From contig JAFPWZ010000084.1 of assembly GCA_017412625.1 (NCBI GenBank), positions 1 to 53,610 on the forward strand: 53,610 nt of DNA, written 5' to 3'. Positions 8,251-53,522 of this stretch are shown here, piece by piece; the stretch's first letter is position 1; the number at the start of each line of letters is the position of its first letter. Under the pieces are notes generated by a model. The model did no database searches and was not told the origin of the DNA. It saw only the letters and a program-made list of their open reading frames with translations. The DNA is from Methanomicrobium sp. (lineage in GTDB: Archaea; Halobacteriota; Methanomicrobia; Methanomicrobiales; Methanomicrobiaceae). The translations under genes and the position numbers were made by a program.

Positions 8251-8481
8251 GACTTAGGGGTTTTTAATCTCTATGATCCGTCTTTCACGTAAAACCCGAC
8301 AAGTCGGGAGAGCAAAAGACGAAAGCCGGAATACTCAAAACCTCAAATCGAAAATCAAAACCAAAACAAAAGAAAATCAAAACTAAATCAAAACCAAATC
8401 AATGCAAAATCAAAACAGATACCCAAAATCAAGAAGAGATACTCAAAAATCAGTAACGGAAAATCGAAAAAGAAAACTTAG

Positions 8482-10180: not shown

Positions 10181-10471
10181 TTACTCTTTAATTAATGAAC
10201 GCTCAATTGTACGGAGTGCAACCTTAAGGTTAGGCGTCTGCGGGACGTATGCTCCGCCGGCATACTTGTATCCGCACTTCTTGCATTCCCAGATACCCGT
10301 TCCCTTTCTGGTAACGGCTTCGGTTGCGCAGTTCGGACATACGTGTTTTGCCTTTGCAATTTTCTCGACTTCGTTGACGCGTTTTCTCAGGAATCTGCCG
10401 TATCTGGGACCGAATCTGCCCGATGTTCCGACAACCCTTCCTTTTGCTCTCTGATTACTTGATTTTGCCAT
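10181..10471 (-). CDS. rpl37ae: Ribosomal protein L37Ae (eL43)
   Basis: A 96-residue large-subunit protein with the C4 zinc ribbon CPNC...CKKC (residues about 45-67) and the family signature GRFGPRYG near the N-terminus. It is the first gene of a five-gene operon (rpl37ae, rpoP, Brix, pcc1, pfdB). Its ATG lies about 30 bases after a clear TATA box, so the leader is only a few bases. In most archaea this gene follows rrp42; here the exosome genes are absent and the SBDS gene is next upstream. Confidence 0.96.
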
Positions 10472-10496
10472 TGTTTCTTAGCCCCGAATTTAGGTC

Positions 10497-10508
10497 TGTA
10501 TATATTGG
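10497..10508 (-). promoter_or_regulatory. TATA box for the rpl37ae operon
   Basis: On the minus strand CCAATATATACAG lies centred about 31 bases before the rpl37ae ATG. It implies a nearly leaderless transcript and shows that rpl37ae is transcribed separately from the SBDS gene, 142 bases upstream. Confidence 0.6.
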
Positions 10509-10613
10509 ATTTGTAACCTTATTAATTATGACTGGTTTGTTCTTTAATATTTCTTATATGATCCCCCCGAAGGCATCTTCGCATGCCGCGGGAGAGGGGG
10601 TGCGAGGGAGTTC

Positions 10614-11315
10614 TCAGTCCTGACTGAGAAGCTTTACCTCGCCGTCACCCTTTGTGAGACGGTTGACGAGGTCGAAGAATTCGCCCTGAATTCCGGCGGG
10701 AATCTTGCAAATGCATATCCATGAGCCGTCTTTCTGCCACTCGTCCTTCTCAAGCGTTGTCGCCGACGCAAGTTCGCCGTATGCCTTGGGCGCGAAGTCC
10801 GCGGGTATCTTTACGGCATAGCGCGCTTCCGCAAATTTAATCGGAATCAGCGGTCTGAGGGCTTTCATGACGTCTTTTACCTGTTCGTCGACATGCTTGA
10901 ACGGGTCTATGCTGACTCTTGCCTCCTCCATTGCCATCTCGATACGCTTCGGCGGGTGAGGAAGTTTGGTCTGCGGATTAATCGCGTTGCGCGATATGAA
11001 GGTGATAATCTGGTTGCGCTTCATCTCGACCATCTGTTTTCTCTGTTCCGCGGTCAGGTGAATCTCGCCTTTCGTGATTATACGCTGGGCTATTGTCTCG
11101 AAATCGGTCGTTCCGAAGACTTTCTTAAGGGATTCGTCCGAAGCTTTGTCGGTCTTGGATGCGTTCTCGAATACGAACAGTGCCGCAACCGCATCCTCGA
11201 TATTGATCTTTTCGCCCTGGCGTATGCGCGCCGCTTCATCGGGATCCACGAGGATCTCAAACTTCTCCCCGTGGCTCTCGAGCCTTGCCACTACTGCCTG
11301 CTCAAGAGATATCAA
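10614..11315 (-). CDS. SBDS-family ribosome maturation protein (Sdo1)
   Basis: A 233-residue SBDS protein, the archaeal relative of the Shwachman-Bodian-Diamond factor that releases the anti-association factor aIF6 from new large subunits. The N-terminal FYSH domain (residues 1-90), the three-helix central domain with [26 protein letters not shown], and the ferredoxin-like C-terminal domain (about 160-233) are all present. It begins 10 bases after the end of psmA and belongs to the same transcript. In many archaea rrp4, rrp41 and rrp42 follow directly; they do not here. A small hairpin (CGAAG-GCAT-CTTCG, 10569-10582) lies downstream. Confidence 0.94.
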
Positions 11316-12164: not shown

Positions 12165-12754
12165 TGTAACTCCTCAATATCTTTTTTTGTGTAATACAAA
12201 GAATCTTGGCTTTTTATTCCATCTTTATATAAATCAATCTTTTCCCGCGAGATTATCACGGGACGATAGGAAATACCTTTTATGATTATGTCCTTTTTTG
12301 CATATAGCAGATTTGATTCTGCGCAATGCGCACCGTTCTCACTGCCCGCACTGTCCCCACGGTTCTCAAAGTTCTCACGGCTCTCAGTGTTCTCAGGGTT
12401 CTCACAGTCCGCACGGCTCTCAGCGGCGCGAATCTTCTCTTTAAGGGTGAGCACGGTTCCCGACGTTAGGACGGGACGGATTGCGCACGGCATGCCTGCG
12501 ACCGCAGTCACGGTCGAGACTGCCGCCTGAAGTTTCTTCTCGGTTCCCCGCGTGCAGCGGATTATCGCCCAGTTTCCTTCGGTGTGAACAACGCTCATTC
12601 CGATTTCGGCGGCGCCGTTATCGCCGAAGAGCGAGGCGACCGCGTCGTAAACGGCGTAATAGACCTCTTTTCCGTCCGCATCAATGCCGTGCGGGACGAT
12701 TCTGCACAGCACATAGCGTTTGTTGACCCTCAGTGTCGGCGGCAGCGCTTTCAT
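12152..12754 (-). CDS. rnp2: RNase P protein component 2 (Pop5), with a C-terminal extension
   Basis: Pop5 binds the catalytic domain of RNase P RNA together with Rpp30, and both genes are adjacent here. Residues 1 to about 112 form the expected Pop5 domain ([16 protein letters not shown], then [20 protein letters not shown]). The remaining 88 residues are unusual. Residues 118-141 are a tripeptide repeat of ENx type encoded by a 9-base repeat, and residues 142-200 are an AT-rich stretch that overlaps the psmA promoter and start. The family usually ends near 110-150 residues, so the tail looks like acquired read-through. The start overlaps the rnp3 stop as ATGA. Confidence 0.9.
12223..12234 (-). 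promoter_or_regulatory. Probable TATA box for psmA, inside rnp2
   Basis: The minus strand reads ATTTATATAAAG about 65 bases before the psmA ATG. This predicts a start near 12203 and a leader of about 40 bases that carries the psmA Shine-Dalgarno. The site lies within the C-terminal extension of the rnp2 reading frame. Confidence 0.5.
12332..12403 (-). repeat. In-frame 9-base tandem repeat in rnp2 (8 units)
   Basis: The minus strand reads as eight 9-base units close to GAGAACNNT, encoding [21 protein letters not shown] and ENG. The unit core TGAGAAC also occurs in the intergenic array at 14521-14590. Array length is a multiple of three, so the frame is kept. Confidence 0.8.
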
Positions 12755-13572
12755 GATATATCCTCCGTGTTTCCGATGTCTTCGTCGTATTCGTCGGATT
12801 CGTCTGTTTCTTCAAGTTCGTTGAATCCATCATATTCGTTGCAGGCGGCGCTTTCATCGCATGGGCTGTCGCTCTCCGACGGCGCACCGAAATTCGACGG
12901 GTTTACGGTTACGGCATTCTGCGGGTTCAAAAGTGCCGATACGGAGTTCAACGCGGCCGCGGTCTCTTCGTCGGTCATGCCGAAGAGAGAGCAGAGATTC
13001 GAAATCTCGCGAACGCCGCGAAGCTGGGTGTAAGTCCGCGCTCCCGAGGATATCGTGAGCATAAATCCGTATTTTCTGTGGAATTTCAGTATATCGGCAT
13101 ATGCCGCGAGCGCCTTCTGCCTTGCGATGCCGCGCTTTCGAACGATGGGCGAGAGGTCGATATCGACGGCGACGGACTTCTCAAGGGCGTTTACCGCGCA
13201 GACATCGTCGAAGGCGTTTTTGGGAGCGCTGTCGATGTTTTTGAGGATATTGACTCTGCCGGACGAGAGCACGCTGCGGTTGAAGGCGTTGTCACCCGCG
13301 GTTACCGCGACAATCGGCACGGAGTCGTATTTTTTGACCTGATTCTGAAAATCTTTGAAGTTTTCGGCTTTTATGACCGCGCCACGCACAATCTCGACGC
13401 CGTATACATTGAAGACCGTCATGCCGGCGAACTCTTTCGGAGTCGCGGCTTTAAAATCCGCGTTTGAGCAGACGAGTCGTGAAAATCCGAGATATTTTGC
13501 TTCGAGAGCCATTCGGCGCAGCGACGAACTGCCGAGCGGATACGCAAAGACACAGGCGTCTGATACTGTCAT
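12751..13572 (-). CDS. rnp3: RNase P protein component 3 (Rpp30)
   Basis: Rpp30 is a TIM-barrel protein of the PHP-like superfamily that pairs with Pop5 in archaeal RNase P. From MTVSDACVF the protein has 273 residues: the barrel (about 1-210) with VDIDLSPIVRKRGIARQKAL and MLTISSGARTYTQLRG near its end, then an acidic tail of about 60 residues. The open frame extends 32 codons further upstream, but that part reads unlike Rpp30 and has no ribosome-binding site, so the internal ATG at 13572 is preferred. It ends in a 4-base overlap with rnp2 and follows rpl15e by 137 bases. Confidence 0.9.
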   Translation of the reverse strand: MTVSDACVFAYPLGSSSLRRMALEAKYLGFSRLVCSNADFKAATPKEFAGMTVFNVYGVEIVRGAVIKAENFKDFQNQVKKYDSVPIVAVTAGDNAFNRSVLSSGRVNILKNIDSAPKNAFDDVCAVNALEKSVAVDIDLSPIVRKRGIARQKALAAYADILKFHRKYGFMLTISSGARTYTQLRGVREISNLCSLFGMTDEETAAALNSVSALLNPQNAVTVNPSNFGAPSESDSPCDESAACNEYDGFNELEETDESDEYDEDIGNTEDIS

Positions 13573-14520: not shown

Positions 14521-14590
14521 TTCTCACTTTTAAGTTCTCAGTTTTAAGTTCTCACTTTTCAGTTCTAATTTATCAGTTCTGATTTATCAG
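14521..14590. repeat. Five-unit 14-base tandem repeat
   Basis: The plus strand contains five back-to-back 14-base units: TTCTCACTTTTAAG, TTCTCAGTTTTAAG, TTCTCACTTTTCAG, TTCTAATTTATCAG and TTCTGATTTATCAG, followed by a partial sixth. The array ends three bases from the moaC stop codon. Next to it, 14464-14500 carries a 10-base GAGAGATTTT repeat. It is not CRISPR because there are no spacers. Confidence 0.85.
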
Positions 14591-14593
14591 TTC

Positions 14594-15064
14594 TCAGTTC
14601 TTCTCTTTTCTGATGACGTGGATGTCCTCTATGCCGGTTACGGGATACTGACCGTTCTCGTCCTTTTCGGCGGATTTTACCATGTCCCAGATTGTGAGAA
14701 GTGCAATCGAGACACCCGTAAGCGCTTCCATCTCGACGCCTGTCTTGCCGTAGGTCTTGACCGTGCAGGTTGCTTCGATGCAGTTTTCGTCGGCGATGTC
14801 CTCAAAATCAACGGAGACGCCGCCGATGGGCAGCGGGTGACACATGGGTATGAGGTCTGAGGTTCGCTTTACGCCCTGTATCGCGGCAACGCGTGCGGTT
14901 GCAAGGACGTTTCCTTTTACAACCGTTCCTTCGCGGATTGCCTTCATTGTCTCTTCGCGCAGGTATATTCTGCCGGCGGCGACCGCCAGCCTGTTTACGT
15001 CGGTCTTTTGGGTGACGTCGACCATATACGCCTTGTCGTCTTTTATGTGTGTGAATTCTGCCAT
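14594..15064 (-). CDS. moaC: Cyclic pyranopterin monophosphate synthase MoaC
   Basis: MoaC converts the cyclised GTP product of MoaA into cyclic pyranopterin monophosphate for molybdopterin, needed by the W/Mo formylmethanofuran dehydrogenase and formate dehydrogenase of methanogens. The 156-residue protein carries [25 protein letters not shown] and DMVKSAEKD, all MoaC signatures. The start MAEFTHI has GGAG six bases upstream; an upstream TTG in the same frame is not favoured. It stands alone, with nnr 121 bases upstream on the same strand. Confidence 0.95.
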
Positions 15065-15185: not shown

Positions 15186-16913
15186 TCATTCCGAGTCTGA
15201 ACGGAGTATCTCCGCAATAACGGGAAGAAGGTCGGAGGCGAGGAGACCGTCGCCGTATTTATCCGCAACCGCCTCGCCGCACTTTCCGAGGGAGTATGCC
15301 GCCGCGGCTGCCGCATCAAACGCCGGCATTCGGCACAGCAGTGCGCCGCAGAGACCCGCAAGAAGGTCGCCGGTGCCGCCTTTTGTCATCGCAGGCGTTC
15401 CCGTAGCGTTGAATCTGACGCTTTCTCCGTCGGAGATTACGTCAACGGCGCCTTTCAGGAGAATGACGGCGTTCAGGTCTTCGGCGGCGTTGGCGGCGGC
15501 GTTGGCGGCTTTAATTTCGGCGATAAACTTCCTTGCCTTTTCCGCACGCCCGCGGAGTGAATCGGTTGCGGAGGGGTCATTATCTGCCGCGGCAGTCTTT
15601 TGTATCTCCGTTCCCGAAATTCTCCGAAATTCTCCGAGATGCGGGGTGTAGATTACCTCCCGCAAATGCGGCGAGCCGCAGGGGGTTGACACGGGCAGAG
15701 GCACAGGCAGAGGTACTCTGAGTGCGTCGGCGTCGATGACGGCTTTTTTCGCGTATGCCGCAAGTCTCCTCACGGTATCATGACTGCGGCTGCCCAGCCC
15801 GCAACCGATTACGACCGAATCCGCAAGATCGATGAGCTGTTTAAGCCGCTCTTCGTGAATCGCGGAGAGGTATCCGCCGTTATTCGGGTCATAGGGCAGG
15901 TTTTCCGTGATGAGATCGGGATACTGCATCACGAATTCGGATGCGGGCGGCGTGAAAGTCGCGACCTGAACGATATCGGCGCCGGCTCTCAGCGCGGCAA
16001 GTGCGGCGAGATAAGGCGCGCCCTGATACTCCCGGCACCCGCCGATGACGAGGACTCTTCCGCCGGCGCCTTTGTGCGCATCCTTTGATTTCTTCGGGAT
16101 TACCGCAATCTCCCCGGGACCTGTGAGGAGTTCTGCCGCGGCAGGTATCCCTATCTCGCAGACGCGGATTTTGTCGTTCGGAATCGCATCCTGCGGCATA
16201 TTTTCGGACGCGGTTATCTTCTCCCTGTGAAATGCCGCCGTGAAGTCCGACCGAATCTGCGGAGTGGGGATATCGGCGCTGACGACAAAAGCGGCGGAAG
16301 AGTTCGCGGAAGCAACCATCTGATTCAGCGGCTCGCGAAGTTTTCTTCCCGCACCTGCGCCGGTTCCGAGGATGCAATCGGCGATTAATGTCGCCTCATC
16401 GAAGATATACGAGAGTTCCCTTACGTCAGCGTCGGTTTCGACCGCATAAACGCCGATATTCGGGATCTCACGAACTCTGTCAAGATTTTTACGGCTTTCG
16501 GGCGTGTATCTTTCCGCGGCTGACTTCGGGTAGATTACCGATACTTTTGCAACGGCATTATCGCCGCCTTTATCAGCCGCAAGAATACGTGCGCAGACAA
16601 AACCGTCGCCGCCGTTGTTCCCGCCGCCGCAGAGCACCAGAATCTTCTGCGGGTTTTTGCAGGCGGCAACGGCATCCGGGGCAGGGACAGCACGGGCGGC
16701 GCTGATCTCGCGGATTTTATCGCGGATGCACTCCGCAAGCGCTCTGCCAGCATTCTCCATGAGAGTCTCCGCCGATATGCCGAGCGCCATTGCATTCCTG
16801 TCAATCGCCCGCATTCGCAGCGGAGATACCGCGCCCTTATGCATGAATCCAGACAGCTTTTCGATATCGATGTCTGCGGACTTACACTGCTTTTCGGGAG
16901 TTACTGCCTTCAT
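15186..16913 (-). CDS. nnr: Bifunctional NAD(P)H-hydrate epimerase / ADP-dependent dehydratase
   Basis: Nnr repairs NAD(P)H hydrates: an N-terminal epimerase (YjeF_N, about residues 15-235) and a C-terminal kinase-like ADP-dependent dehydratase (about 265-575). Visible motifs are CGGGNNGGDGFVCAR in the first domain, and IGGCREYQGAPYLAALAALRAGAD and TKGGTGDLLAGLCGALL in the second. At 575 residues it is longer than average because of low-complexity insertions: a Pro-rich VPLP repeat from a 12-base unit, and an Ala/Asn run near residue 490. The start at 16913 has only a weak ribosome-binding site. Confidence 0.93.
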   Translation of the reverse strand: MKAVTPEKQCKSADIDIEKLSGFMHKGAVSPLRMRAIDRNAMALGISAETLMENAGRALAECIRDKIREISAARAVPAPDAVAACKNPQKILVLCGGGNNGGDGFVCARILAADKGGDNAVAKVSVIYPKSAAERYTPESRKNLDRVREIPNIGVYAVETDADVRELSYIFDEATLIADCILGTGAGAGRKLREPLNQMVASANSSAAFVVSADIPTPQIRSDFTAAFHREKITASENMPQDAIPNDKIRVCEIGIPAAAELLTGPGEIAVIPKKSKDAHKGAGGRVLVIGGCREYQGAPYLAALAALRAGADIVQVATFTPPASEFVMQYPDLITENLPYDPNNGGYLSAIHEERLKQLIDLADSVVIGCGLGSRSHDTVRRLAAYAKKAVIDADALRVPLPVPLPVSTPCGSPHLREVIYTPHLGEFRRISGTEIQKTAAADNDPSATDSLRGRAEKARKFIAEIKAANAAANAAEDLNAVILLKGAVDVISDGESVRFNATGTPAMTKGGTGDLLAGLCGALLCRMPAFDAAAAAAYSLGKCGEAVADKYGDGLLASDLLPVIAEILRSDSE

Positions 16914-19825: not shown

Positions 19826-20434
19826 ATGTCCGAGATGAATAAGGTCAATAAATTCGAAGGAAAACGAAGCGAGCGAAGCGAGAACAGCGGAAATCGGGAT
19901 AATCGCGATAACCGCGACAGAGGCGACAATCGTGAAAAGCGTGAAAAACGTGATTTTACAAGGGAAGCGCCGTATGCAAAGGATTCCTACTTAAGCCGCG
20001 TCAGAGTCATCGCCGATTACCAGTTCGGAAAGGGTGCGGGCGCGGGGCTTTTCCCCGACGACTGCGAGTTTAAGCTTTCGGCAACAAAGCGCGTGCGCTA
20101 TATCTTTCTCGGTAAAGAGCGTCTGGCAACACTGCGCGCAAACGACGGCAGGCTGACCCTCAGCCAGACGGGCGCAAAGAGGCTCTGCGAGACCCTGCCC
20201 GCACCGGCATACCGCGTTATCGTAAAGGACGATGTCTGCGAGTTTGTCGCGGCAGGCAAGAACGCGATGGCAAAGCACGTTACTTTTGCCGATCCGCAGA
20301 TTCGCGGCGATGACGAGGTTCTGGTCTGCAACGAAAAGGGCGAGTTTCTTGCAACCGGCAACGCGGTGCTGAGCGCAAAGGAGATGGCGGAGTTCAACTA
20401 CGGCGTTGCGGTCATGGTCAGAAAAGGAAACTGA
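19826..20434 (+). CDS. PUA-domain RNA-binding protein with a repetitive N-terminus
   Basis: A 202-residue protein. Residues about 47-202 match a euryarchaeal PUA-domain protein related to archaeosine tRNA-guanine transglycosylases and pseudouridine synthases (AKHVTFADPQIRGDDEVLVCNEKGEFLATGNAVLSAKEM). It probably binds RNA. Residues 15-44 are ten tripeptides (SER, SEN, SGN, RDN, RDN, RDR, GDN, REK, REK, RDF) encoded by a 9-base repeat, probably a disordered charged extension. The GGAGTAAACA before the ATG supports this start, so the repeat appears to be translated. It precedes nac, as in related methanogens. Confidence 0.82.
   Translation: MSEMNKVNKFEGKRSERSENSGNRDNRDNRDRGDNREKREKRDFTREAPYAKDSYLSRVRVIADYQFGKGAGAGLFPDDCEFKLSATKRVRYIFLGKERLATLRANDGRLTLSQTGAKRLCETLPAPAYRVIVKDDVCEFVAAGKNAMAKHVTFADPQIRGDDEVLVCNEKGEFLATGNAVLSAKEMAEFNYGVAVMVRKGN
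19868..19957 (+). repeat. In-frame 9-base tandem repeat in the PUA gene (10 units)
   Basis: Ten degenerate 9-base units of CGCGATAAC type encode residues 15-44. The array length is 90 bases, keeping the frame. It matches in unit length the arrays in rnp2 and in the PepSY-like gene. Confidence 0.8.
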
Positions 20435-22250: not shown

Positions 22251-23348
22251 TCAGATAAAGAATCTGAACGCAATCCAGGCTATTGCAAGCATTATCAGCG
22301 AATATTTGAGCCCCGCAATCGCGTTTCCCTCACCCATCTGTCCGGCGACAAGTCCGGAGAAGAACGCCTGAATCATTGCCGCGTGGGAGAAGAGACGGCG
22401 GTACAAGTCCATATCCTGACCGCCGCCGACGGACATGCCGCCGAATACCGATGCACCCGCACTGCCCGCGGTTCCCGCGCCTGCGCCTGCCGTGCCCTCC
22501 GCTCCTCCCGACGCTCCTCCCGAATACAGAGCCGAACCTGCGTCCGCCATGGTCTGAAGGAAGGTTGCCGACATTATGCCTATGATGAAGAGAAAGACCA
22601 GAAACGAGATTATGACGATTATGACGTAGATGAGCATGTTGTTTCGGCGTTCTTCGGCGAGACCGACGAATTCGCGGGAGTCTTCGGCCGCGGCTTTGAG
22701 GACCTCGCTTACGTTGCCGCCCGCAATGCTTGCTTTGGCAACGAGGTCGACACTGCGTTTGGCAAGAGGCGCTTCCAGAGAGTCCCCGAATCTCACGATT
22801 GCGTCGATAAACGGCATGTTCCACGAGATTTCGCAGTCCATCTTTTTTATACGGGGCGTCAGTTTTCCGTAGTCGCCGCCCGATACCGTGTGAACGGCGT
22901 TGGGAAGCGTCATTCCGCTCTCGTTCATGCCCGCAAGGTCGCGGAAGAAGTTGGGCAGGGCAACCTCCATGCTTCTTATCCGCATGCTCTCCCGCGTAAA
23001 AAGCACGGCATAGGGCGTAAGCGCGATAAAGAGCGCGAGCACGACGAGATCGTCTACGTATGCCGAGGAAAAGGTCTCCGCTATGCCGCATTCCGCGACC
23101 GACCGCAGCATGCCTGCGATGAGGACGGTTAACGCGAGCGGAATCGAGACGATGAGGACGTTTTCGGGCTTTTCGGTCAGCATATCCGCGGGATGACAGA
23201 ACAGCCTCCGTATGCCTTCCTCCGATCTCTTCTTCAGCGCTATCCTGCGGAGGATCTCTTCCTGCATATCTCCCCGCATAATCCCGTCATCCGTGAGATC
23301 GGGATTGGCATCGGCGGGGGCTGCTTTTTGCATCATATTATCCTCCAT
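22251..23348 (-). CDS. Type II secretion/pilus platform protein, TadC-like (GspF domain)
   Basis: A 365-residue membrane protein with a cytoplasmic N-terminus, a pair of membrane segments (about 60-110), a GspF/T2SSF domain (about 125-235: RDLAGMNESGMTLPNAV, SWNMPFIDAIVRFGDSL, KASIAGGNVSEVLKAAAED), and three more membrane segments separated by a Gly/Ala-rich external loop. With the preceding gene it forms the usual pair of platform proteins of Tad-type pili and archaeal type IV pilus systems. Its ATG lies one base from the stop of the upstream gene, so the genes are cotranscribed. Confidence 0.88.
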   Translation of the reverse strand: MEDNMMQKAAPADANPDLTDDGIMRGDMQEEILRRIALKKRSEEGIRRLFCHPADMLTEKPENVLIVSIPLALTVLIAGMLRSVAECGIAETFSSAYVDDLVVLALFIALTPYAVLFTRESMRIRSMEVALPNFFRDLAGMNESGMTLPNAVHTVSGGDYGKLTPRIKKMDCEISWNMPFIDAIVRFGDSLEAPLAKRSVDLVAKASIAGGNVSEVLKAAAEDSREFVGLAEERRNNMLIYVIIVIISFLVFLFIIGIMSATFLQTMADAGSALYSGGASGGAEGTAGAGAGTAGSAGASVFGGMSVGGGQDMDLYRRLFSHAAMIQAFFSGLVAGQMGEGNAIAGLKYSLIMLAIAWIAFRFFI

Positions 23349-26377: not shown

Positions 26378-26722
26378 TATCCCTTCAGTATCCTTCAATG
26401 AAAATCCCCCACCCCGATGCGGGTTGTTAACAGAGTTAACAGGTAACAAAAGAACTCTGTCACGCTCAAAATTATAATCTTCCGAAAAATTGACCGACAA
26501 AAGGAGTTTAAAAGGTGTTAAATGGAGTTAAAAAAGATTCAAAGAAAATCCAAAGAGATTCTTAAGATATGCCGAAATGATTCCCTGGAAATTCTCAGGT
26601 AATTCTTAGGGAGTTTTCAGGTTATTCGTAAGGTATTTTCAGGTCATTCATAAGGTATTTTCAGATAATTCATATGTAATTTCAAAAGGGATTCAAACCG
26701 ACTTTAATTCAAATCCGAAAAT
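26378..26722. other. Divergent promoter region with an unusual repeat
   Basis: This 345-base region separates the ATPase operon (minus) from the prepilin peptidase (plus), so promoters for both should lie here. It is AT-rich. Its right half holds a four-unit 22-base tandem repeat described separately. Several A/T-rich stretches could be TATA boxes, and I cannot choose among them. Confidence 0.5.
26592..26679. repeat. Four-unit 22-base tandem repeat
   Basis: Four contiguous 22-base units begin TTCTCAGGTAATTC, TTTTCAGGTTATTC, TTTTCAGGTCATTC and TTTTCAGATAATTC, the middle two differing at two positions. The array lies between the divergent ATPase and peptidase genes. Its unit length is two helical turns of DNA, so the units would present themselves on the same DNA face. 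Confidence 0.85.
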
Positions 26723-27613: not shown

Positions 27614-28048
27614 ATGACCGAAAATACGAATAACAACCATAAATCGGACAACTCCCGCCTGCCGCTCCTCTCGGAGATAAAATACGACAGGAACGGGCTT
27701 GTGACCGTCGTCGTCCAGGACGCGGGAACAAAAGAGGTTCTCATGACGGCATGGTCGGACGAGGCCGCCGTCCTCGAGACGATTCGGACGGGATATGCGC
27801 ACTTCTACTCGCGCAGCCGCGGGAAGATGTGGAAGAAGGGCGAGGAGAGCGGGCATATTCAGGAGATAGTCCGCATCCTTGTCGACTGCGACTGCGACAC
27901 GCTCCTCTATCAGGTAAGACAGAAGGGCGGCGCATGCCACACGGGTCACATGAGCTGTTTTTACAGAACGCTCGAAGGAGAAGATGTCGGAGAGAAAGTT
28001 TTCGACCCGGCGGAAGTATACGGCGATTCCGGGAAGGGATCGATCTGA
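27614..28048 (+). CDS. hisI: Phosphoribosyl-AMP cyclohydrolase HisI
   Basis: Third step of histidine synthesis: opens the adenine ring of phosphoribosyl-AMP. The 144-residue protein has all expected signatures: LVTVVVQDAGTKEVLMTAW, THFYSR-like AHFYSRSRGKMWKKGEESGH, the metal-binding DCDCDTLLYQV and KGGACHTGHMSCFYR. No HisE domain is fused. It lies 36 bases after the prepilin peptidase, with a CCGAGTGCAAA repeat between them. Confidence 0.95.
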   Translation: MTENTNNNHKSDNSRLPLLSEIKYDRNGLVTVVVQDAGTKEVLMTAWSDEAAVLETIRTGYAHFYSRSRGKMWKKGEESGHIQEIVRILVDCDCDTLLYQVRQKGGACHTGHMSCFYRTLEGEDVGEKVFDPAEVYGDSGKGSI

Positions 28049-28106
28049 TTAGGGATTGAATACTTAATTAGGGATTGAATACTCTAATTAGGGATTGAAT
28101 ACATTA
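28048..28106 (+). repeat. Three-unit 20-base tandem repeat
   Basis: Three copies of ATTAGGGATTGAATAC plus a four-base tail (units of 19, 20 and 20 bases) start at the hisI stop codon and run to within 20 bases of the next ATG. The array is directly repeated without spacers, so it is not CRISPR-like. Confidence 0.85.
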
Positions 28107-41067: not shown

Positions 41068-42015
41068 ATGAAAAAAAGGCAGAATTTAATCCTTCAGAGT
41101 TTCGGCGCATCGGGCACGAAGATGCCGCCGCCGAATGCGGACGAACTCGCGGAATGGATTCGAACTCCGAGACCGAAGAAGACCGACCGCGACATAACGA
41201 CCTATTTTCTGGAGCGGCAGCTCAAGGCTCAGGCAGGCTGTGCGGATATCCCCGGATGCGGCGGCGGATTCTACGGTTCGCGCCTGCTTGAGTCAATCGG
41301 CGGGCATAAAGAGGGCTACGTCAACGGCGAACTCCATGCGGTTCCCGATATGGTCAAAGCCGATGCCGAATCAGTAAAGGCGCTTCAAAAGACGCTTTGC
41401 GGGAACACTGCGGCAGCGCCGCTGAACTTCGTTCTGCCTTCACCCTCCGCACTCAGACTGAACGATGTCTTCTACGACGATATCGGCGAGTATTACAGTG
41501 CAATCTGCGAGGTTTACGCCAAAATCATGCGCGAACAGCGCGATCTCGGAGTAAAAAGCCATATCCTCATCGCGGATTCCTTCGCGCACGACGAACTCGA
41601 GGAACTATCGCGTGAGAGAGTCTTCTTCTGTTCGCCTGCGGCAACGTCGCGGCAGCTGAGCAATATCCTCGAATATCAGACCGCGGTTGCGATAATCCCC
41701 TCAAAACTGCCCGTGCTCTTCGAGCTCATGAACGAATACGAGGTCAGGGATATCTGCCTCATCAATGCGAAGCCCTCCGATTTCGATCCGTGCCTTGAGC
41801 ATTTCGACCCCGACGGCATAAAGGCGGGCGGCATTGAATTCCGGCAGGACGCAAAAACGCAAACCGAAAGAGAATCAAAACCGAAACGGGAAACCGAAAA
41901 CCTAACCGTAAACGAAAACATAACCGAAAACGAAACGGAAACAGAATCTGCGGCAGAAAGCATGACCGCGTTCTGGAAAGATCTTAAAGAAAACAGTTAT
42001 CTGATGAGAGATTAG
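41068..42015 (+). CDS. Uncharacterised protein, MetE/UROD-barrel-like
   Basis: A 315-residue protein that I cannot place with certainty. The middle (about residues 90-245) has the rhythm of a TIM barrel related to methionine synthase II or uroporphyrinogen decarboxylase-like enzymes: NFVLPSPSALRLNDVFYDDIGEYYSAICEVYAKIMREQRDLG, then HILIADSF, then VRDICLINAKPSD. The usual zinc-binding cysteines are not obvious, so activity is doubtful. Residues 275-294 are five tetrapeptides from a 12-base repeat (ETEN, LTVN, ENIT, ENET, ETES). It may act in methyl transfer, but that is a guess. Confidence 0.65.
   Translation: MKKRQNLILQSFGASGTKMPPPNADELAEWIRTPRPKKTDRDITTYFLERQLKAQAGCADIPGCGGGFYGSRLLESIGGHKEGYVNGELHAVPDMVKADAESVKALQKTLCGNTAAAPLNFVLPSPSALRLNDVFYDDIGEYYSAICEVYAKIMREQRDLGVKSHILIADSFAHDELEELSRERVFFCSPAATSRQLSNILEYQTAVAIIPSKLPVLFELMNEYEVRDICLINAKPSDFDPCLEHFDPDGIKAGGIEFRQDAKTQTERESKPKRETENLTVNENITENETETESAAESMTAFWKDLKENSYLMRD
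41890..41949 (+). repeat. In-frame 12-base tandem repeat (5 units)
   Basis: Five 12-base units, for example GAAACCGAAAAC and GAAAACGAAACG, encode the tetrapeptides ETEN, LTVN, ENIT, ENET and ETES near the C-terminus of the MetE-like protein. The repeat keeps the reading frame. Confidence 0.75.
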
Positions 42016-43443: not shown

Positions 43444-43470
43444 GACCCGTTACCTCACCCGATTACAATT

Positions 43471-43713
43471 TCAGCAATCGGGTTTTTCTTCGCGGTTGCC
43501 GCCCGAATAATACAGAATGTATGTCGCCGCCGCAAACAGTCCTATTCCGACCCAGAACCCGCCGAAGCCGCCGTCGGCAATAACGAATACCGCCGCACAG
43601 TACAGCACCAGCGCCGCAAGTTTCAATGCATCTTTTATGATATTTTCATTCACTTTTCTGTTCGTATTTTCAGTCATATTTTCGCTCATTTTTTCGTTCA
43701 CCTTTTTATTCAT
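43471..43713 (-). CDS. Small membrane protein with a repeat-encoded N-terminus
   Basis: An 80-residue protein with two membrane segments (about 31-48 and 52-70) and a short charged tail. Residues 5-24 are five tetrapeptides (VNEK, MSEN, MTEN, TNRK, VNEN) encoded by a 12-base repeat. Several ATG codons inside the repeat are possible starts, so the true N-terminus is uncertain and the repeat might even be a leader. No family recognised. Confidence 0.55.
   Translation of the reverse strand: MNKKVNEKMSENMTENTNRKVNENIIKDALKLAALVLYCAAVFVIADGGFGGFWVGIGLFAAATYILYYSGGNREEKPDC
43642..43701 (-). repeat. In-frame 12-base tandem repeat (5 units)
   Basis: Five 12-base units on the minus strand (for example ATGAGCGAAAAT, ATGACTGAAAAT) encode the N-terminal tetrapeptides of the small membrane protein. 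The array at 43738-43814 lies about 40 bases upstream and shares the CATT/AATG-rich character. Confidence 0.75.
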
Positions 43714-43737
43714 TATTTTTCATTATTTGCTCGCAGT

Positions 43738-43814
43738 TCGCTCATTATCTGTTCATTATCTGTTCATTATCTGCTCATTATTTGCTCATTATTTGCTCAT
43801 TGTCTGCTCATTTT
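43738..43814. repeat. Seven-unit 11-base tandem repeat overlapping the tetR end
   Basis: Seven 11-base units on the plus strand, CTGTTCATTAT or CTGCTCATTAT with small changes, run without spacers. The last unit overlaps the tetR stop codon (43808-43810). Read on the minus strand they supply repeated TGA-containing ATGAGCA motifs. Confidence 0.85.
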
Positions 43815-52535: not shown

Positions 52536-53522
52536 TCAGTTATATCCGCTCTTAAGCATTATCTCGCCGGTTTCGGCGTCAATGAGCACAATGCCGCCGT
52601 ATGTCGTGTAATTAACGGGCTTTCCTTTCAGCATCACGGTATAACTCAATGCGGGGCGACCCTTCTCGACATATTCCACGGACAGCGTGCAGGACTTATC
52701 GGTTACCTCAATGCCGGGGAACGCCTCAATTGCCTTTGCATAAGCCTCCTCTTCGCTCAACTTCGGCGTCATCGTGCCGTTATAATCGCGGTTCAGCGCC
52801 ATATACGAGAGGATTTCGCCGTTAACCGCGTCAACCGCGAGTGTGACAATATTCAGAGTCTGAACGCCGTCAACCGACTCCCTCCATGTCAGGATGTAAT
52901 CTTTGCCCCCCGCCATGTGATCGTTATACTCCGAGTCGATTTCGACCGTATTCATCTTCACAAATTCGGGATACTTTTCGGCAATATAGCGCCATGCATT
53001 CTCTTTTGCCTGATCAAGCGTTATTGCCTTCTCCTTTTCCGCGTCGCTCCTCTTATCGTAGAATGAGATCATCTCTACCCTGCCGTTGTCTTTACTGACA
53101 TATGCGGCGGCTTTGCCGATTCCGCTGCCGCCGTCGACGTTATACTGATAATAATCCCCCTGACTGAAGTAGGTAACTTCATTTGCGAATTTGACATCGG
53201 AGAGCTTCAGACTGTCATCGCCGATGAACTTCAACACGCTCTCTTTCCCTTCCTCAACGGTTATCTCCCCGCCGGCGCTTCCGACGTTTCCGGCGTCACC
53301 GACGCTCACGGTGCTTTCTGTGCTTCCGGTGCTTCCAGTGTTTTCTGTGCTTTCGGTACTCTTTCCTCCTTCGGCAGCGGTTGTTTTTACGCTGTCGCCG
53401 CTTACTTTACCCGCACCGGCACCTGCGGGTGATGAATTTAACATGTTCACTGCCGCAATGCCGCAGACGATGGCAACGACAGCAACGACTGCCGCTGCCG
53501 CAATTATTACTCCTTTTTGCAT
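52536..53522 (-). CDS. Exported PepSY-like protein with a 9-base repeat linker
   Basis: A 328-residue exported protein. An N-terminal membrane helix (about 5-25) is followed by a Ser/Thr/Gly/Glu linker with ten tripeptides at 55-84 (STE, STE, NTG, STG, STE, STV, SVG, DAG, NVG, SAG), then two PepSY-like repeats (ITLDQAKENAWRYIAEKYPEFV and LSEEEAYAKAIEAFPGIEV with following TLSVEY and GEILSYM). PepSY domains often inhibit peptidases. It starts after GGGGGGAT, which strongly supports the ATG at 53522. Confidence 0.82.
   Translation of the reverse strand: MQKGVIIAAAAVVAVVAIVCGIAAVNMLNSSPAGAGAGKVSGDSVKTTAAEGGKSTESTENTGSTGSTESTVSVGDAGNVGSAGGEITVEEGKESVLKFIGDDSLKLSDVKFANEVTYFSQGDYYQYNVDGGSGIGKAAAYVSKDNGRVEMISFYDKRSDAEKEKAITLDQAKENAWRYIAEKYPEFVKMNTVEIDSEYNDHMAGGKDYILTWRESVDGVQTLNIVTLAVDAVNGEILSYMALNRDYNGTMTPKLSEEEAYAKAIEAFPGIEVTDKSCTLSVEYVEKGRPALSYTVMLKGKPVNYTTYGGIVLIDAETGEIMLKSGYN
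53271..53360 (-). repeat. In-frame 9-base tandem repeat in the PepSY gene (10 units)
   Basis: Ten 9-base units on the minus strand encode residues 55-84 (STE, NTG, STG and variants). Total 90 bases, same as the PUA gene array. The linker is likely flexible and exposed outside the cell. Confidence 0.8.

Follow-up and report, generated by a model that had tools for sequence, protein, structure and literature searches.

Short tandem repeats in coding and intergenic DNA of a rumen-type Methanomicrobium, and the evidence for frame-keeping selection

Archaea rich in minisatellites have already been described, among them Methanosarcina, Methanobrevibacter ruminantium, and Methanococcus voltae (Subirana and Messeguer 2019, PMC6749651). 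The long-repeat arrays of M. ruminantium are reported there to be mutually unrelated, and many arrays in coding DNA to have periods that are multiples of three; microsatellites of 3 to 6 nt were abundant in all species studied, and short satellites were linked to them (PMC6749651). Human genes also contain repeats of codon-multiple length, which change the length of the protein (PMC1273636).

Here we describe a related case in Methanomicrobium. The window, by which we mean the whole stretch of 53,610 nucleotides that was analyzed, is contig 64 in a 128-contig, 1.63-Mb genome (G000). As in the genomes of PMC6749651, many short arrays are scattered over the genome, and many of the coding ones have a period divisible by three. 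Arrays with a period of at least 10 and at least 4 copies number 74 per Mb in G000 and 75 per Mb in its relative G002, compared with a maximum of 89 per Mb in that paper; our values come from samples to which its regularity filter was not applied. Repeats of 1 to 5 bp are below chance here, whereas microsatellites were abundant in those species. When satellite richness is defined by units of 10 to 200 nt in at least 4 copies at more than 4 per Mb, there are 24 such arrays in 0.326 Mb of G000 and 27 in 0.360 Mb of G002, and 0 in 0.2 Mb of the congener G005, with units searched up to 60 nt and the internal-regularity filter left out. The units are unique, in that no 6-base word beyond the AT-rich background is common to many of them, and the two marks of coding minisatellites are present: periods divisible by three in genes versus free periods outside them, and array differences between orthologs that come in whole codons. 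Unlike the human case (PMC1273636), this one concerns an archaeon, the intergenic arrays provide a built-in control, and conserved RNase P and repair proteins are affected. We compare coding with noncoding periods within one genome, turnover between sister species, and protein insertions, comparisons not made in the passages of PMC6749651 on which we draw; the main text of that paper makes no mention of Methanomicrobium, and among open-licence papers we found none on tandem repeats in this genus and no closer match. Rumen-type Methanomicrobium is a new, unusually dense case of the minisatellite-rich archaea already described, with codon-length repeats in coding DNA.

Five other genomes of the genus were available. 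The proteasome-alpha gene adjoining rnp2 has 96% identity with a contig from water-buffalo reticulum assigned to Methanomicrobium sp. RGIG7908; that genome is G004, whose contig C201 equals the RGIG7908 record letter for letter. Identity of rnp2 to the window is 86% in G002, 81% in G004, and 60 to 63% over the core in G001, G003, and G005. A three-gene tree places G000, G002, and G004 in one clade (support 1.00), from which we define the name "rumen clade," and the other three in a second (0.99), where G001 groups with G003 (0.71) and both then with G005 (0.99). Divergence between G000 and G002 at fourfold sites is 0.19. Periods were counted on samples of 326 kb from G000, 360 kb from G002, 52 kb from G004, and 200 kb each from G001 and G005, with smaller pieces of seven other genomes added; genes were called with a dicodon model, and Tandem Repeats Finder was run separately on genes and spacers. 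The samples are a nonrandom fraction of each genome, and the G000 window and contig C5 of G002 are syntenic and therefore not fully independent; G004 is only 74% complete. Five all-N contigs of G000 (L102, L112, L114, L117, and L119) were removed from the density counts, and the G000 array counts are the same either way (49 coding, 156 intergenic); one all-N contig each in G004 and G006 was counted as spacer, which makes their spacer densities somewhat low. Lag statistics leave out all N.

Arrays of the window and their orthologs

A sequence-only reading of the window had pointed to in-frame arrays in five unrelated genes. All five are present at the positions in Table 1 and start in codon phase 0, and 0 of 1,000 codon shuffles of each gene reached the observed lag identity. 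The MetE-like array also has a lag identity of 0.67 at lag 6 and 0.71 at lag 18; the gene owes its label to that reading and had no Pfam match at an E value of 0.001. That the encoded peptides often contain Glu-Asn is true of rnp2, the MetE-like gene, and the small membrane protein, but not of the PUA and PepSY genes, where the pair occurs once each. For the arrays between genes, only units of 11, 14, 20, and 22 bp had been listed; this is too narrow, the range in the window being 8 to 33 bp and including 9, 12, 18, and 24.

Table 1 Tandem arrays of the window, with the rnp2 gene
Feature	Position	Strand	Lag identity or relatives
Intergenic 11/33-bp array	8351..8417	no strand	
rnp2 (Pop5 subunit of RNase P), 200 aa	12152..12754	-	orthologs of 185 aa (G002), 218 aa (G004), 160 aa (G005)
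rnp2 array, 8 x 9 bp, unit GAGAACNNT (coding strand)	12332..12403	-	lag-9 identity 45/63
rnp3 (RNase P p30, 12751-13572), coding 9-bp array in C-terminal tail	12781..12804	-	
Intergenic 7/14/28-bp array	14521..14601	no strand	unit without match in G002 interval
YjeF_N/Carb_kinase gene (15186-16913), coding 12-bp array	15482..15509	-	
YjeF_N/Carb_kinase gene, 10-bp unit, 2.4 copies, exception not divisible by three	15614-15637		also in G002
YjeF_N/Carb_kinase gene, second coding 12-bp array	15690-15713		
TGT_C2 + PUA gene (19826-20434), degenerate 10 x 9-bp array at N terminus	19868..19957	+	lag-9 identity 54/81
T2SSF gene (22251-23348), coding 12-bp repeat, 2 copies	22500..22523	-	
Intergenic 11/22-bp array	26591..26674	no strand	unit without match in G002 interval
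20-bp array x3, from last bases of gene 27614-28048 into spacer	28044..28102	no strand	G002 interval without array
MetE-like gene (41068-42015), 5 x 12-bp array (also 6/18-bp) near C terminus	41890..41949	+	lag-12 identity 33/48
Small membrane protein gene (43471-43713), 5 x 12-bp array at N terminus	43642..43701	-	lag-12 identity 31/48
Intergenic 11-bp array, 6.6 copies	43740..43812	no strand	G002 interval without array
PepSY gene (52536-53522), 10 x 9-bp array	53271..53360	-	lag-9 identity 56/81

The arrays are outside or between domains wherever domains are recognizable. Pfam Rpp14/Pop5 covers residues 13 to 108 of the rnp2 product, and the array follows it; the TGT_C2/PUA domains begin at residue 58, after the array; and in the PepSY protein the array is located between an N-terminal hydrophobic segment and DUF4901 (residues 143 to 241), which precedes PepSY (254 to 321). 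An AlphaFold2 model of Pop5 based on 32 orthologs gave block-mean pLDDT values of 52, 43, and 38 over residues 121 to 150, compared with at least 90 at residues 11 to 110; few alignment rows contain the insert, so the low values there partly reflect lack of data.

Alignment with relatives, proposed earlier as a check, gave net differences between G000 and G002 in whole codons: 45 nt in rnp2, 18 in the PUA gene, 54 in the PepSY gene, and 36 in the MetE-like gene. The PepSY and MetE-like arrays are the shorter ones in G002, and the conserved tail of the MetE-like protein then continues in the same frame. The rnp2 insert is absent from G001, G003, G005, and four aligned outgroup loci, in most of which the conserved C-terminal tail directly follows the core; within the rumen clade, its length and unit differ per species (a 9-bp unit in G000, a short degenerate run in G002, and a 12-bp unit in G004). 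The start region before the PUA array is similar in G002 and G004, and G001, G003, and G005 match only from residue 41 to 50 on. Conserved sequence in frame on both sides supports the view that the array segments are translated (rnp2, MetE-like, PepSY, and, in G002 and G004, PUA). Only residues 24 to 71 of the small membrane protein, after the array, are recognizable in G002 (56% over 48 aa). The locus as a whole differs strongly between the sister species: the matches flanking window positions 43447 to 43807 (360 bp) are about 1.1 kb apart in G002. Gene 27614-28048 encodes 144 aa, its G002 ortholog 158 aa, and the 20-bp array there may have moved a gene end.

Repeat periods in coding and intergenic DNA

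The contrast in unit length between genes and spacers had been read as the product of selection for an intact frame, and a period count in the samples bears this out. Among arrays of at least 2.5 copies, the period was divisible by three in 54 of 54 coding arrays versus 71 of 200 intergenic ones (Fisher p of about 1e-20), and the intergenic share is no different from one third (p = 0.55). The coding counts are 28/28 in G000, 21/21 in G002, and 5/5 in G004, and the intergenic counts 34/95, 34/98, and 3/7; at the same copy number, G001 has 5/6 coding and 3/17 intergenic, and G005 1/2 and 1/3. With all copy numbers included, the figures for the rumen clade are 89/100 and 124/331. The stronger statement, that the unit in coding DNA is always a multiple of three, holds for the rumen clade at 2.5 copies or more and fails below, the 11 exceptions among 100 coding arrays all having 2.4 copies or fewer. 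Matches counted by lag without a repeat finder (rumen clade, lags 6 to 48) were distributed over residues 0/1/2 modulo three as 161/15/13 runs in coding DNA, against 27/5/8 after codon shuffling, and as 195/134/142 in intergenic DNA, where we attribute the mild excess at residue 0 to harmonics of 9 and 12 and perhaps to missed genes.

Such a contrast could be an artifact, if an open reading frame is called coding only when its repeat keeps the frame open, or if metagenomic assembly made the arrays. Our genes come from an in-house caller, and arrays of other periods would break a reading frame. We nevertheless regard an artifact as very unlikely. Among genes with a homologue in another sampled genome, coding arrays of at least 2.5 copies still have periods divisible by three in 15 of 15 cases in G000 and 14 of 14 in G002; when proteins of G001 and G005 were placed on G000 and G002 by tblastn, 0 of 226 placements were frame-split, with filters that could miss short remnants. 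A 10- or 11-bp period repeated three more times also keeps the frame, yet none is present at 2.5 copies or more, and three separate genomes agree.

Length differences between the sister species were counted as well. A gap-by-gap count over the raw alignment of the window with G002 gave lengths divisible by three for 64/127 coding and 102/392 intergenic gaps; these counts are less clean; net changes are split over several gaps, and many gaps are in the poorly alignable gene 43471-43713. For well-flanked indels between G000 and G002, the counts are 18/26 coding and 8/51 intergenic, the coding exceptions comprising six 1-bp and two 8-bp indels. The data support frame-keeping selection as a filter on a general process of duplication or slippage. 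Even arrays with a period divisible by three are less dense in the genes of G000 than in its spacers, by a factor of about 6 (45 in 269.8 kb versus 54 in 55.7 kb). One genome thereby offers a natural experiment, with a less filtered mutation spectrum between genes and a filtered one inside them.

In the samples of G000 and G002, coding arrays overrepresent N, D, and S (in G000 Q as well) and contain little L, F, M, and W; V and I are reduced too, though to a lesser degree in G002. Variation between units is higher at third codon positions (0.24 in G000, 0.22 in G002) than at first and second positions (0.13 to 0.17), an excess that points to some selection at the amino acid level too. One might go further and suppose that the arrays were selected for peptide function, as charged or polar tails that bind RNA or partners or as linkers of a given length, the codon period then following from repeated peptides. 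The overall bias toward N, D, S, Q, K, and E and the third-position pattern fit this idea, as do the arrays of rnp2, rnp3, and PUA, all RNA-linked genes of the window. It does not explain why arrays of free period also fill the spacers, nor why the rnp2 unit and its length differ in all three species; the rnp2 array has eight units, and in all of them the variable codon ends in T while its first two bases vary, the opposite of what peptide selection would leave, and 14 of 19 coding arrays have no unit in common with the sister species. We consider peptide function improbable as the source of the contrast, and frame-keeping selection on a general process the better account.

Distribution, unit lengths, and turnover of the arrays

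Intergenic arrays number 280 per 100 kb in G000, 280 in G002, 153 in G004 (a small sample), and 145 in G001, compared with 23 in G005 and 16 in G003 (one array); six genomes from other genera of the family have 0 to 64 per 100 kb, each value resting on at most 2 arrays. Arrays cover 12.6 to 12.7% of intergenic DNA in G000 and G002, where dinucleotide-shuffled spacers gave 9 arrays versus 156 seen and 4 versus 163 seen, respectively; the coding samples contain 49 and 42. Among 80 loci around the proteasome gene, only the Methanomicrobium locus and that of one horse-feces archaeon attain a density of 74 arrays per 100 kb counted over the total sequence, and the other 78 have 37 or fewer. The latter archaeon (L076, JAKSUH010000022.1; 8 arrays in 10.9 kb) is distant, with 61% identity in the proteasome protein, and comes from another gut.

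The position of G001 deserves separate mention. Its sample (L121 to L130, G001:C1:700001-900000) is rich in intergenic arrays but has few protein insertions, and the genome groups with the array-poor G003 and G005. This pattern points to an independent second rise in G001 or to losses in its relatives. A single array-rich origin common to G001 and the rumen clade finds no support in the three-gene tree; loss in G003 and G005 could still reconcile the two.

The unit-length spectrum was obtained from runs of at least 10 matches at each lag in 120 kb of rumen-clade spacers. Lags 1 to 5 gave 0 runs versus 17.3 expected from shuffles, lag 6 gave 5 runs, and lags 9 to 15 gave 177 versus 3.9 expected, with a peak at 11 and 12. 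Lags 1 to 5 are also depleted in G001 (4 versus 18.4 expected) and in G005 and G003 together (0 versus 5.5), so the block on small repeats is general in the genus and the excess of larger units the lineage-specific part. Intergenic units peak at 10 to 12 bp, with echoes at 22 and 24, and the commonest coding periods are 9, 12, and 15.

A peak at 10 to 12 bp with such echoes recalls the helical turn of DNA, and phased repeats might be kept for chromatin, bending, or protein binding. The placement of the arrays speaks against a role of this kind. They cover 0.03 to 0.055 of the bases within 25 bp upstream of start codons versus 0.09 to 0.18 further up, are least frequent in divergent spacers, and are densest about 25 to 75 bp after stop codons, as expected if arrays are tolerated rather than used. 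The commonest coding periods (9, 12, and 15) and the turnover of the units also count against it; we give this explanation hardly any weight.

The sequence-only reading had also seen shared cores, TGAGAAC and GAAAAC, as a sign of a common process. This part did not stand. TGAGAA, GAGAAC, and GAAAAC occur in the unit of 1 to 2 of 49 coding and 1 to 4 of 156 intergenic arrays in G000, and of 0 to 2 of 42 and 0 to 2 of 163 in G002. Small palindromic elements have spread through genes and spacers in Rickettsia, and a mobile or dispersed repeat with such a core might have done the same here; the three words are indeed about 5- to 6-fold commoner inside than outside the coding arrays of G000, and TGAGAA occurs at 1.29 per kb in its intergenic arrays versus 0.47 outside. 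The coding enrichment, however, comes from one or two arrays for each word, and the words found most often in intergenic units are typical of any AT-rich DNA, no other 6-base word being common to many units in this comparison of 6-base words. There is thus no core sequence common to many loci, as an RPE-like family would have, and we judge a dispersed element extremely unlikely. The common process is evidenced by density, period spectrum, and lineage distribution, not by a common sequence.

Units are seldom shared between the sister species. By a similarity cutoff that we set, the unit recurs in the orthologous G002 interval for 11 of 58 intergenic arrays (61 lie in aligned contigs, 3 of them not comparable) and for 5 of 19 coding arrays; 23 of the 58 G002 intervals contain some other array. 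Adjacent units diverge on average by 12% in spacers and 17 to 18% in genes, values biased by the finder threshold, and the variation inside units fits randomly placed point mutations. Clean indels between G000 and G002 total 77, and of the 35 with at least 6 bp only 2 are exact tandem copies, so no duplication was caught in the act; clean events were too few for a useful measure of microhomology at duplication borders. Taken together, the comparisons suggest that arrays are born, drift, and vanish quickly. The rnp2 array, with its constant TGAGAAC and free dinucleotide, had raised the idea of a core plus variable spacer made by an untemplated or switching mechanism. As a general mechanism we rejected it: the column states match random mutation, 30 indel-free intergenic arrays of G000 with at least 3 copies having 7 columns with three or more states versus 8.6 expected.

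Among 113 ortholog pairs, protein length differs in 19 of 24 with an array and 37 of 89 without. Internal insertions of at least 8 aa number 21 in G002 versus 1 in G005 (89 orthologs; one of the 21 is in Pop5), 14 in G002 versus 0 in G001 (62), 9 in G000 versus 0 in G005 (50), and 8 in G000 versus 0 in G001 (35); the control pair, G001 versus G005, has 5 versus 1 (57). These insertions are not all independent, with several per gene and recurring genes, and their direction was checked with outgroups for rnp2 only. Relative to G005, 11 of 21 insertions in G002 and 5 of 9 in G000 are periodic, compared with 20 of 105 and 4 of 45 segments drawn at random from those genes. The arrays add floppy, fast-changing segments to otherwise conserved proteins of a methane-making rumen archaeon, and the entry of new disordered segments into conserved proteins becomes testable in an archaeon.

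Repair genes and the possible origin of the arrays

Mismatch repair acts on loops of a few bases and lets larger ones pass. Its loss, which would produce microsatellite slippage, was considered and ruled out: MutS and MutL matches are present in 6/6 genomes of the genus, and lags 1 to 5 show no excess. NucS is represented in the family only by weak NucS_C matches (8/28 genomes, best E value 4e-8). The rad27/FEN1-type signature of yeast consists of duplications of units of at least 5 bp, uncorrected by mismatch repair; here, in contrast, all six Methanomicrobium genomes have a FEN1-family match. DinB matches are likewise present in all six, and an XseA match is absent only from G004, the incomplete genome; across the six, the presence or absence of FEN1, XseA, and DinB formed no pattern separating array-rich from array-poor genomes.

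The best explanation as a whole, to which we assign a probability of roughly 0.85, is that rumen-type Methanomicrobium duplicates short segments (units from about 8 bp upward) in tandem at a high rate and that a frame filter acts on the result. Such duplications would arise by strand slippage or by flap or loop misalignment during replication. The lack of 1- to 5-bp units would follow from MutSL-type mismatch repair, which removes small loops but lets large ones escape, an evasion that we infer from the spectrum and gene presence only. Frameshifting duplications and those within folded parts would then be removed by purifying selection, and the codon-multiple repeats that remain would be disordered insertions that enlarge proteins such as Pop5, MutL, and DinB.

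G005 and G003 have the same MutS/MutL genes and also lack microsatellites, yet contain few arrays, so a further cause is needed beyond evasion of mismatch repair; none was found among the MutS, MutL, FEN1, DinB, and XseA matches of the six genomes. What suppresses duplication on the minisatellite scale when mismatch-repair genes are intact thereby becomes testable, a question that arises because intergenic array density differs about tenfold (280 versus 23 and 16 per 100 kb) between congeners that have the same MutS/MutL genes. More tentatively, and with doubts on our part, the rumen Methanomicrobium and, separately, the G001 lineage might be minisatellite mutators proficient in mismatch repair, in which replication or repair has changed (in flap processing, polymerase choice, or loop repair) so that duplications of 8 bp and more are common while smaller ones stay blocked, and frame selection turns the result into disordered linkers across the proteome. 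If so, the supply of new disordered linkers would be steady despite the reduced genome and would extend to the repair enzymes MutL and DinB themselves.

Both of these enzymes are enlarged in the rumen clade. MutL has 703 to 711 aa versus 612 to 619 in G001, G003, and G005 (84 to 99 aa more), with polar inserts in the N-terminal domain and the linker that are different among the three species (L201 in G000, L202 in G002, and L182 in G004). DinB, which likewise carries polar, variable segments, has 471 to 492 aa versus 362 to 369, with 109 to 123 residues past the conserved VRL(I/V)GV motif versus 19 to 26 (L111 in G000:C17, match at 10230-10679; L208 in G002; L207 in G004). The rumen-clade DinB ends in KTRLQNWF, which resembles a PCNA-binding (PIP) box, and a PCNA-tethered error-prone polymerase would be a candidate cause of the arrays; G001, with many arrays and no DinB tail, counts against it. 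The XseA N terminus of G000 and G002 also carries a polar, variable segment.
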